Assembly: GCA_963575645.1 (NCBI GenBank)
Contig: OY754465.1
Span: 1,984,001-2,048,000 of the forward strand
Direction: 5' to 3'
DNA from: Xanthostigma xanthostigma
Lineage: Eukaryota > Arthropoda > Insecta > Raphidioptera > Raphidiidae
DNA: 64,000 bases
Part shown: positions 58,507 through 62,901 of the stretch, piece after piece
How positions within the stretch are numbered: the stretch's first letter is position 1
Layout of the letters: every line of letters begins with the position of its first letter
Position numbers and translations under genes: made by a program
The notes under the pieces: generated by a model
What the model was told of the DNA's origin: nothing
What the model saw: only the letters and a program-made list of their open reading frames with translations
Databases searched by the model: none

Positions 58507-59599
58507 TATTTCAGTTTTGTCATCAATGTTAACAAATCGTAGGAGTGGCCATGCAACGTTAAAAAGCGTGATTATTTAAAGGTAAGATAGCATATAACTA
58601 CAATACTCTTTCTGCGAGTCTTGAAAGAAAAAAAAATACTGACTCCTGGCTCCTGAAACTTGGAGCATTTGCTTTGCAAATGTGAAGCAGTCATGATACG
58701 AAGACTCCGTCACTTGAACGAGTCATTTCCAACGCCTGATCAAGTTTGTTAACAGATTCCAGAACCATTCCAGGCTTTTTCAAAAGCCTTAACCTCGTTC
58801 AGGAATAAACAAGTCAGGGCTACACAATAGATCTACCAAAATCGCTGTTGATGCGTACCTCACACCCTCTATCTAATCTAATACCTAAATTTTTACAAAG
58901 ATTTTAAATGTAAAAACTCTTAAACATGTAAGGTAAGTAGTACTAAAAAATCAGAGATAATAATTAATTATCTGCAATTTCTGGGATCCTCAATTATTGA
59001 GGATCTCAGAGCCGCGTATTCGAGGCCGACTGTAGTAATTGATAGCTACTACCGCATTAAAGTTGATCGACACCATTATTACTACTCACGTCGATCATTA
59101 TTAAATGTTTACATATTGCGTATTACTACAGTAGATGAATATTGACATATGGTAGCACTTAACCATATGTTAAAAATTTACATAGCAAATTCGAAGTTAT
59201 TAATCAAAAAATTTAAAAAAATATTTTAGCACTGATCACGGAGATCCAGACAACAAAGTATCTTTATCCCATATTCCTGTTACGCGGTAAACATAATTTC
59301 GACAACAATTAGCAACAGTGGCTGGGGGCGTAGCGTGGGTTGACATTCTATTGAGCACCCCCGAAGTAAAACAACAAATCGTCGTTGGTTCTGTAATAGA
59401 TTTTACGTTTTTTAGATGAAAAGGTTCAGAAACGGAGCTGTATACACTAGTAATACCTCCAAATTAATTTTACAGTAACCAACAAGGGGCAGTAACTCTT
59501 ATGTGAAAAGTTGTATCAAATAATTCCTCCCATGTGCCAATAAATCCGAAATTAACGTTAAATAATTTTTAAGAAAATACTTCGTCTTAATTAAACATG
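58507..59599. other. intergenic, nothing recognised
   Basis: It lies between two Tigger-type elements; no open frame or repeat was identified. Confidence 0.45.
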
Positions 59600-59699
59600 T
59601 ACAGTAGAACTCCAATTATCCGAACTCCGACTATCCGAATCGCCGATTATCCGAATCACAAAAAATTGTCCAAAAAAAGTCTAAGTGCGCTATTATTCT

Positions 59700-59835
59700 T
59701 CCCCCCGCGAAGCCAGTGTTTGCGCGTCAAGTCTTGACTTGACTTGTCTTAACTTGCCGTTGTGACTACACTGACTTCCCCCCGCGAAGTCAGTGTAGGC
59801 ACAACGGCAAGTTAAGACAAGTTCCGGCGCATTGC
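59700..59835. repeat. hairpin and direct repeat in the pogo 5' leader
   Basis: The word CTTCCCCCCGCGAAG occurs twice about 75 bp apart. A stretch reading TTGTCTTAACTTGCCGTTGTG followed by ACACTGACTTC is matched by its reverse complement downstream, giving a long GC-rich stem directly before the transposase start. It lies inside the element, between the end and the gene. Confidence 0.7.
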
Positions 59836-59937
59836 AGTCACGGCCGCACCTGTCATTGTTTGTTTTGATTAGCCAGTGTGCTATTGACCTTGCTCACTTT
59901 TGTTTGTGCGTGTACAATACTGTATTGTTTTTATACC

Positions 59938-61200
59938 ATGGCTTCGAAAAGAAAACGTGTTGTGCTATCGTTAGCGGACAAACTGAAAATTATAGAGCAA
60001 CTCGATAAAGGTGTAACGGGTAAGAAGTTGTCTGAGATTTATGGTGTTGGACAAGCAACAATTTCTGACATTAAAAACAGTAAGTCAACACTTTTAAACT
60101 TTGTTTCGGTGCTTGAAAATGAAGATGGAAGTTCCTCCAGGAAAACAATGAAGCCAGCAACCAACAAAAATTTGGAAGATGCCGTGTTTAAATGGTTTTT
60201 GCAGCAACGTTCTATGGGAAATCCGATTTCAGGTCCAATCCTTTGTGAAAAAGCCAAAATCTTAGCAGAAAAGCTTGGTTATTCATCTTTTAAGGCTAGT
60301 AACGGCTGGCTAAGGAATTTTAAATTCAGGCATGGTGTACGCGAGTTAGATTTGGCTGGTGAGAAGCTTTCAGCAGACTCTGCAGCTGCTGAAAATTTTA
60401 TTGAAAAATTTAAAATTGCATCAGAATCCTATGATCCGGAGTTTGTTTATAATGCCGATGAAACTGGCCTTGTTTGGAAAGCATTACCAAAAACCACTTT
60501 GGCTTCTAAAAGGGAATCTAGTGCCCCTGGACATAAGGTCAGTAAAGAACGTGTTACAGTGCTTAACTGTGCCAACTCCACTGGAAATCATAAACTGCCA
60601 CTTCTTTTGATAGGAAAATCAAGAAATCCAAGAGCATTTAAAAACGTAAAAAAACTTCCACTCTTCTACAAAAGTCAACCCAAGGCCTGGATGACTGCAG
60701 CTTTGTTTACCGAATGGTATGATGAAGTGTTTATTCCTGAAGTGAAAAAGCACCAAAAATCGGTGGGAAAAGAAGGCAGTAAGGTGCTTTTAATTGTTGA
60801 TAACGCACCCACTCATCCTACAGCAGAACTGTTGGAAAGAGAGAATGGGCAGTTTAAAACGACGTTTTTGCCTCCCAATGTTACAAGTTTGCTGCAACCC
60901 ATGGACCAGTCTGTTATTGAAACAATGAAGCGCCATTACAGAAGGCAACTGCTGAGAAAACTGCTGATCGAAGGTGCTGAAGATGAAGAATTGGTTTTGG
61001 CAAATCATAGCAAAATAAATTTAAAGGACTGCTGTTACATGGTAGCGGAAGCTTGGAGTTTGGTTACGGCAGTGACGCTAAGACGTGCGTGGAATAAACT
61101 GAAAGGCCTACCGTCTGAGAAGAACAAAAAAAAGAATCTGAAGAAAATGAGAAACAAGAATATGGAGAGGATGATGATGATGAAGATGCGTTGTCACTAG
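59938..61200 (+). CDS. pogo/Tigger transposase (CENP-B/jerky-like), 420 residues, C-terminus frameshifted
   Basis: The protein binds the transposon ends and cuts and pastes the element in the nucleus. Residues 1-60 form a Psq-type helix-turn-helix (KLKIIEQLDKG, VGQATISDI). Residues ~80-140 form a CENP-B-type DNA-binding helix-turn-helix (FKASNGWLRNFKFRHGV). A DDE_1 domain follows with the three aspartates of the pogo DDD triad, seen in YNADETGLVW, LLIVDNAPTHP and LLQPMDQSVIET. The start at 59938 is preferred over an in-frame ATG at 59878 because it has a strong context (ACCATGG) and begins with the family-typical MASKRKR. After residue ~397 the frame runs into a lysine- and methionine-rich tail and stops. 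The expected acidic C-terminus lies in another frame beyond an A8 run at 61126-61133. Confidence 0.93.
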   Translation: MASKRKRVVLSLADKLKIIEQLDKGVTGKKLSEIYGVGQATISDIKNSKSTLLNFVSVLENEDGSSSRKTMKPATNKNLEDAVFKWFLQQRSMGNPISGPILCEKAKILAEKLGYSSFKASNGWLRNFKFRHGVRELDLAGEKLSADSAAAENFIEKFKIASESYDPEFVYNADETGLVWKALPKTTLASKRESSAPGHKVSKERVTVLNCANSTGNHKLPLLLIGKSRNPRAFKNVKKLPLFYKSQPKAWMTAALFTEWYDEVFIPEVKKHQKSVGKEGSKVLLIVDNAPTHPTAELLERENGQFKTTFLPPNVTSLLQPMDQSVIETMKRHYRRQLLRKLLIEGAEDEELVLANHSKINLKDCCYMVAEAWSLVTAVTLRRAWNKLKGLPSEKNKKKNLKKMRNKNMERMMMMKMRCH

Positions 61201-61577
61201 AGGAAATAAGAAAAATGATTGTAAAAGTTCCTGGTTGTACAGAAGTAAGTGCTGAAGATGTAGGAGAGTGGATGGCTTGTGACACGTCTGACCCTGGTTT
61301 TCAAATTCTCAATGACGATGAAATTGTTGTAAGTGTGAGAGAAGATGTTGAAGTGGAAGTGGAAGAAGAACTTTCTGCTGATGTTGAAGTAGACGCTGGA
61401 CCATCAGCTAGTGAAGCATTTGCCGGCCTCGAGACTGCTTTGAAGTGGATGGAGCGTCAGCCCGAGTGTGACCACTTGCAACTGCTCACCGTCAAGCGAA
61501 TGCGTGACCTGGCTGCCCGAAAACGGTTGAAGACCGCAAAACAGCTTACATTAACGGAGATGTTTAAAAAACAATGA
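61119..61577 (+). pseudogene. acidic C-terminal part of the pogo transposase, in a shifted frame
   Basis: This frame is open from 61119 to the TAA at 61575-61577 and overlaps the end of the upstream frame. It reads DALSLEEIRKMI, VPGCTEVSAEDVGEWM and DPGFQILNDDEI, typical of the C-terminal tail of Tigger/jerky-like transposases, and ends LTLTEMFKKQ. It would be continuous with the transposase if the A8 run at 61126-61133 differed by one base. The cause may be a real frameshift, a homopolymer error in the assembly or slippage. Confidence 0.85.
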
Positions 61578-61804
61578 TTTTTATTTCTAAACTTGTATGT
61601 ACATAAGTACATTTTATTTATATTTAAAACATGTGAAAATTTCATGTTTCTTTCATTTAATTCAATAAAAAAATAGTGCAATATCAAAACGTAGCTTTTA
61701 TTCTCTCCAATGGCAATTTTTTTAAAAAATCCGATTATCCGAATATTTGATTATCCGAATGGGTCCCGGTCCCCATTAATTCGGATAATTGGAGTTCTAC
61801 TGTA

Positions 61805-62901
61805 TAGAGAAGATAAGTATGAATTAGTAATATACCTCTGAAATTGCTAGTTCTTACCATCCATTGCTGAAATAACCACTTTTTGGCCTTTCCTGCAAAT
61901 TTTACTTTTTGCACATAAGAGGTATTACAGAACCAATGACGAAATACTGAACGTGCTTACGGAACTTTGTTTTGCTAAAATATTCTATCACATTATCACA
62001 ATTAACTTTCCTGTCTTTTTAAATAGATAAAATGGAAAGATTGGTTAGCGCGCTTGGCGCAATGTGGACCTTAAGTAAGATTTTATCAACTTTACATTTT
62101 GAGAAAAGTCTCTTTTACATGAAACCATCGAAACACACTCGGAACAAACTCAGCATAGCCCCATTTTACGACGAATCTGGGAAGCTCCAATGTAGACCAT
62201 TGAAACTAGGTAGCTATTTATTATTTATTGGTTTGTCTTCGCAGAGTGACTCTTCTGGAAGTATTCTCTGGCTGTGCGAGTGAGTTGCCGTTGTCACCAC
62301 TTGGCGCTTGGCACTCGAGGCTGAACGCCGCCCCCCCTTTTGCCGCCTCTGTTTCTTAACGTTATAATATTTTCTACCATCGAAATCAAGCAGTCGGTCG
62401 CTCCCAAGACTTCTGCGCTTGGAGTTCAGAAGTATTAACTACGAACATAGTCCTTTCAGACAGTATATAAATATGATTATATTTTTTTATGGCATAGTTA
62501 TTTTGAAACATTAATGTAAAATATACATGATTTCAATACCAGATAGTAATCAGTCAATTCTACACTTGAATGATGATGTTTGTAAGAAGTTTATAATTAT
62601 TTTTCCAGAACAATGATTCTTTTTTCTTTTATTTCTATTTGTATTCGTAATACCTTCTGGTATAAAAACCTTGTGTTTAGATTTACCATTTTGTCCGAAC
62701 GTGATTCTGATTTTAGTGTGACGGTAGTGTAATTTGTTATTTAGTATATTATAGAAGCTCATCAACTAAGGTCGTTGGCGTCTTATTATAATTTTAAAAT
62801 AAAAAGGTAAAGTCATTAATGGAGTACAGATTTTTCTGATTTCTATCTCTCAAAAGGGGAGATTCAAGTATTACGTAAGCAGAATTTTAGCAATTTTTTT
62901 G
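61805..62901. other. intergenic, no supported gene
   Basis: A chance 83-codon frame at 62032-62283 lacks homology and splice support. The sequence then leads into the satellite array. Confidence 0.45.

Follow-up and report, generated by a model that had tools for sequence, protein, structure and literature searches.

A young pogo-type transposon with a frame-broken transposase and multiplied MITE derivatives in Xanthostigma xanthostigma

The window considered here is a 64,000-nucleotide stretch of the X. xanthostigma genome assembly, and at positions 59602-61802 it holds a 2,201-bp DNA transposon whose perfect 23-bp inverted ends lie between TA dinucleotides. Positions 59600-59624 and 61780-61804 form a perfect 25-nt inverted pair, made up of the TA and the 23-bp terminal inverted repeat (TIR). 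Two stop-to-stop frames of at least 170 amino acids are found in the window (end-running frames left out), of which the transposase frame is the longer. The element and the repeat that surrounds it comprise the following features.

59375..61944, no strand: older repeat of ~365 bp that has inverted ends of its own, split by the transposon (from flank matches, empty-site alignments and the inverted ends of unoccupied copies)
59600..59601, no strand: left copy of the TA target-site duplication, a single TA at paralogous empty sites
59602..59624, + strand: 5' TIR, 23 bp, a perfect inverted pair with 61780-61802; both ends exact in 12/12 copies found
59608..59655, + strand: three tandem ATTATCCGAA-type boxes with 15-16 nt spacing, the first inside the TIR (direct-repeat family D1)
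59742..59822, no strand: long leader hairpin with 37-nt arms and a 7-nt loop (inverted pair I1; RNA fold z -12.6)
59938..61200, + strand: transposase frame of 420 aa, with two helix-turn-helix (HTH) DNA-binding domains and a DDE domain, then an out-of-frame basic tail past the A-run
61126..61133, + strand: A-run at the frame break, different in length among the 3 copies with the run
61191..61577, + strand: acidic C-terminal tail in a different frame, with the degenerate PIP-box-like QLTLTEMF near its end
61727..61760, + strand: subterminal pair of ATTATCCGAA-type boxes on the 3' side (direct-repeat families D1 and D3)
61780..61802, - strand: 3' TIR, 23 bp, a perfect inverted pair with 59602-59624
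61803..61804, no strand: right copy of the TA target-site duplication, a single TA at paralogous empty sites

The ATTATCCGAA-type boxes are putative transposase binding sites. The hairpin, which lies in the transposase leader, is very stable (-63 kcal/mol), and its matches in the whole-element genome search are confined to copies of this transposon; it could hinder translation or serve as an input to small-RNA silencing.

Within the 420-aa frame, Pfam domains CENP-B_N (residues 4-55, 34.6 bits), HTH_Tnp_Tc5 (77-135, 64.5 bits) and DDE_1 (203-385, 166.1 bits) all exceed their cut-offs. Residues 6-131 match the structure of the CENP-B DNA-binding domain (1hlv, E 5.2e-14), CENP-B being the sole match in a PDB sequence search at a threshold of E 0.001. 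The acidic triad of the DDE_1 domain (DDxD), derived from motif positions, is D174, D288 and D323, with 34 residues separating the last two (DD34D). A single-sequence structure model of the frame has a mean pLDDT of 50.8 overall and is poor over the catalytic domain (below 50 at residues 140-356). A first-pass annotation, made from the letters of this DNA, had listed perfect 23-bp ends, a TA duplication, a full DDD triad and both HTH domains, and each of these is recovered here.

The two possible C-termini differ in character. The out-of-frame tail ending at 61200 is short and basic (10 basic and 1 acidic among 24 residues), while the tail from 61191 is acidic, with 28 acidic and 16 basic among the 128 residues counted. 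The QLTLTEMF near its end fits a relaxed PIP-box pattern but fails the strict Qxx[ILM]xxF[FY]; when the tail was shuffled 20,000 times, this relaxed pattern, which was picked post hoc, occurred within the last 20 residues at a frequency of 0.00045. Among 17 other transposase-match loci in the genome (20 fetched, less 3 of the transposon's own family), a strict PIP motif ends the transposase-side frame in two (L041 QTTINDFF and L043 QTKITSFF) and a near-PIP motif is seen in two more (L047 QTKIDDFM and L048 QTKITDYL); the frames printed for the remaining 13 have none, save relaxed matches on the opposite strand. According to one review, yeast two-hybrid work identified Drosophila pogo transposase as a partner of PCNA, and its PIP-box is conserved in human Tigger and Lemi1, with unclear relevance (PMC5371812). 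Given the PIP-like motif in the tail and these reports, a break ahead of the tail would take away a possible PCNA contact and leave the binding and catalytic domains whole.

Membership of the pogo superfamily is judged on TIRs, a TA target-site duplication, CENP-B_N and Tc5-type HTH domains and a DDE_1 domain with a DDxD triad, all of which the element has, and the assignment is firm. The earlier call of a pogo/Tigger type is upheld by the ends, the TA, the domains and DD34D. Tigger elements are given a TA target, TIRs of 8-33 bp and a protein of ~492 aa, range 300-685, in the relevant passage of PMC9219625, and a catalytic spacing of DD29-36D in that of PMC7386202. The window element resembles them in its TA target, 23-bp TIR, length of ~2.2 kb, CENP-B_N, HTH and DDE domains, and a spacing of 34 residues; it differs in that the frame of this copy is broken past the catalytic domain. 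An autonomous Tigger has a single uninterrupted transposase frame, whereas here there is a 420-aa frame and a tail in another, although on length alone the 420-aa frame would pass the 'intact' cut-off of >300 aa stated in PMC9219625. The spacing range quoted for pogoR, the Drosophila pogo type, is DD29-59D/E (PMC7386202) and overlaps that of Tigger. A PIP-box is likewise reported for Drosophila pogo, human Tigger and Lemi1 in the part of PMC5371812 cited above; the window motif is degenerate, with M in place of the consensus F, and the features compared do not separate Tigger from pogoR. As the spacing ranges overlap and the assignment draws on published ranges in place of a tree against named references, Tigger is the probable placement within the superfamily. 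The eukaryotic sequence searched for relatives was the host genome; tblastn confirmed none in viral contigs (14 pattern matches) or in prokaryote genome contigs (45 pattern matches).

The host genome search covered 623 Mb in 28 contigs. This assembly contains a bantam microRNA, a sign of an arthropod, and a TTAGG-type telomere pattern had no match in it. An exact pattern search for the 25-nt end returned 24 matches, which are the two ends of 12 copies, and the reversed pattern returned none in the host genome. These 12 are the window copy, a near full-length copy at C1:82194649-82196808, an internally deleted copy at C10:13602046-13603187 and nine short ones, and in all of them both ends are exact and flanked by TA. 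A search with window positions 60848-61600, which copies lacking that stretch escape, gave the same 12 with 12/12 candidates scored. As the whole-element search scored the best 40 of 420 candidates and the assembly may be incomplete, a further copy, intact or decayed, is conceivable. The nine MITE-size copies measure 464-558 bp between the TAs, having kept both ends of the long element and lost its middle. By their shared junctions they sort into four deletion classes (2, 4, 2 and 1 members); L019 is placed with L018, the alignment giving the same edges and the script's shorter left edge for L019 reflecting one substitution near the junction. Members of one class lie on different contigs, with one pair ~35 Mb apart on C9, and since the junctions are shared at unlinked places, three of the classes multiplied once their deletion was in place. 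L012 and L020, which belong to different classes, both carry an extra gap of 16 bp close to the 3' end; here a deletion between local direct repeats has probably recurred. Deletion-derived MITEs of pogo-like elements are a known general kind, from which the nine short copies show no evident difference. A term search of PMC9976928 gave no match for 'MITE'.

Divergence between the copies is very low. The window and C1 copies differ by 3 substitutions over ~2,157 aligned bp, indels aside, and the columns common to all 12 copies hold five clear single-copy substitutions (59629, 59630, 61458, 61545 and 61676), with the deletion junctions (60845-60847 and 61416-61441), the T/A tract and a small gap in L017 (61750) set aside as alignment effects. 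The host repeat is apparently high-copy in the genome, the flank searches having scored 40 matches per flank of 1,588 and 1,645 first-look candidates. In seven of the eight paralogues fetched the site is empty, a single TA standing in place of the window's TA-element-TA; the eighth, L050, has a mutated insertion site. The right flank of the older repeat opens with its own TA at the insertion point. The window copy thus landed recently in an older, abundant repeat, and the extreme youth that had first been deduced from intactness alone now has the low divergence and the paralogous empty sites behind it.

The A-run at 61126-61133 lies just past the DDE domain, and there the frame from 59938 departs from the tail frame and runs to a stop at 61200, the tail being open in the other frame up to 61577. 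The first-pass annotation had seen this A8 run as splitting off the acidic C-terminus and as the only visible defect; the break is confirmed, but it is not the sole one, as the T/A tract at 61717-61729, outside the coding frame, is 2 bp shorter in the window copy than in the 11 others (13 against 15 in 11/11). The suggested comparison of A-run length between genomic copies could be made for the 3 of the 12 copies that hold the run, and no two of them agree. The C1 copy reads through the run in a single 553-aa stop-to-stop frame (530 counted from the ATG), but it lacks 48 bp, in frame, of the region coding for the catalytic domain. The third copy has its frames unjoined, as in the window. With the C1 copy short of 48 bp of catalytic sequence and the others unjoined, none of the copies found in the assembly combines an intact catalytic domain with an intact tail.

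Of the 23 runs of at least 5 that were listed, 20 are invariant among the copies that hold them (12 of these 20 being two-copy comparisons only), and the variable ones are the A-run and the two halves of the single T/A tract. The boundary within that tract also moves between the 11 other copies (L010-L020), in five arrangements with the total fixed at 15, the window alone being shorter, which suggests substitution via transient misalignment and not plain length slippage. The pattern of run lengths fits length-dependent slippage, and it fits homopolymer errors also.

On one rival reading, the break lies in the sequencing or assembly of the homopolymer and the copy truly encodes a full-length transposase, which the first-pass annotation had thought possible. 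Indels specific to the window are confined to its two longest A/T tracts, a typical place for such errors, and its clearly private substitutions among the three longest copies number only two (59765 and 61227; position 59812 separates it from the C1 copy, with no information from the third). Set against this, two runs of 7 do not vary (10/10 and 12/12 copies) and the T/A tract adds up to 15 in 11/11 others, so the assembly handles such tracts well there and is unlikely to be generally poor; and in the third copy this run, again of a different length, likewise leaves the frames out of register. Long runs commonly slip in nature. Real slippage is therefore held to be the likely source of the A-run change, and an error in the assembly an unlikely one that still deserves some weight. 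That the tail-less 420-aa protein could still act is conceivable, if somewhat doubtful. Nor is the break a mutation common to a dead lineage, as the run length differs in each of the three copies; many copies with the same shifted frame, which the first-pass annotation took as the sign of such a lineage, are not seen among those found. In its broader form, that the family spread solely as inherited broken copies, the idea of a dead lineage can point to the want of any copy found intact in catalytic domain and tail together, but each of the three longest copies is damaged in its own way and the deletion derivatives have multiplied while diverging very little, which makes it quite improbable.

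It has also to be asked whether the run is functional, as a site of programmed frameshifting or transcriptional slippage that yields a tail-less and a tailed protein. A run of at least 8 A's right behind the catalytic domain, variable in 3 copies, would suit such a site, and bacterial insertion sequences use slippage at such runs (PMC1088944 and PMC6211511); the titles listed in a literature search on transposase frameshifts at homopolymers include no pogo. However, the frames are already joined in the C1 copy, an A or T run of at least 6 is present in 0/7 relative loci where the region was found (~5 independent cases, L038-L040 apparently being a single family; in 10 further non-family loci the motif did not locate the region, and they carry no information), and the RNA around the run shows no notable folding (z 0.15). 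Programmed frameshifting was rejected on these grounds as very unlikely. Less probable again is that the run, slipping at the DNA or RNA level, serves as a length-variable switch between transposase lacking the tail and transposase with an acidic, possibly PCNA-binding tail; were that true, replication coupling would be toggled copy by copy within the family.

Other pogo-type sequences were met in the same genome. An older MITE family (L021-L028, 8 copies fetched, 312-417 bp including the TAs) shares only the outer ~58-75 bp with the window transposon, repeated boxes included, at ~83-92% identity, and one transposase may once have moved both this and the young family. Half-sites within 2 mismatches number 522 in the genome, and 498 of them fall outside the young family's exact ends. 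When 20 transposase-match loci were screened for similar ends, both were exact in the 3 of the window transposon's family, L034 and L047 each showed a single end at 3 mismatches, and the other 15 lacked any end within 4 mismatches; no autonomous partner of the older MITE family was among them. By hand count, 42/103 transposase matches fall in a ~7 Mb block at ~8.7-15.6 Mb of C10, ~1% of the genome (best 100 of 330 candidates scored, some matches being two pieces of one element), which may be a low-recombination or otherwise transposon-rich region. A distant pogo-like family gave 11 equal-scoring matches, each in a stop-free 573-aa frame (e.g. C2:14685321, C4:19500019 and C8:15457690), and judged by these frames the family seems intact, with an activity that may exceed that of the window element. 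At C4:33004179-33010452, three adjacent diverged pogo-type open frames of 520, 659 and 543 aa (L037, L033 and L035) lie without clear inverted ends, possibly a domesticated gene cluster.

Taken together, a young cut-and-paste transposon of the pogo superfamily, Tigger-like, with a frame-broken copy and MITE derivatives, is very probably what the window holds. Binding of end boxes, excision by a DDD nuclease and insertion at TA are the known mechanism of the pogo/Tigger group. Judged from its anatomy, the transposase of this family would use its two HTH domains to bind the terminal ATTATCCGAA boxes, and its DDD nuclease would excise the element and insert it at TA. The window copy landed recently in the older, abundant repeat, after which its A-run changed in length, most likely through polymerase slippage, and the break severs the acidic tail from a complete DNA-binding and catalytic core. 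Internally deleted copies arose and then multiplied; as they multiplied after the deletion, a working transposase appears to have acted in trans recently. The long copies are damaged at different places, and so the family, in the assembly searched, has probably reached or almost reached the end of its autonomous phase.

As a young pogo-type transposon the element is ordinary, broken in the tail in its present copy, and a further member of a kind already known. What it offers is a small and very young pogo/Tigger invasion caught in decay, in which two long copies are hurt differently and MITE classes have multiplied after deletion; this leaves general understanding unchanged, and makes a useful example for annotation and dating.
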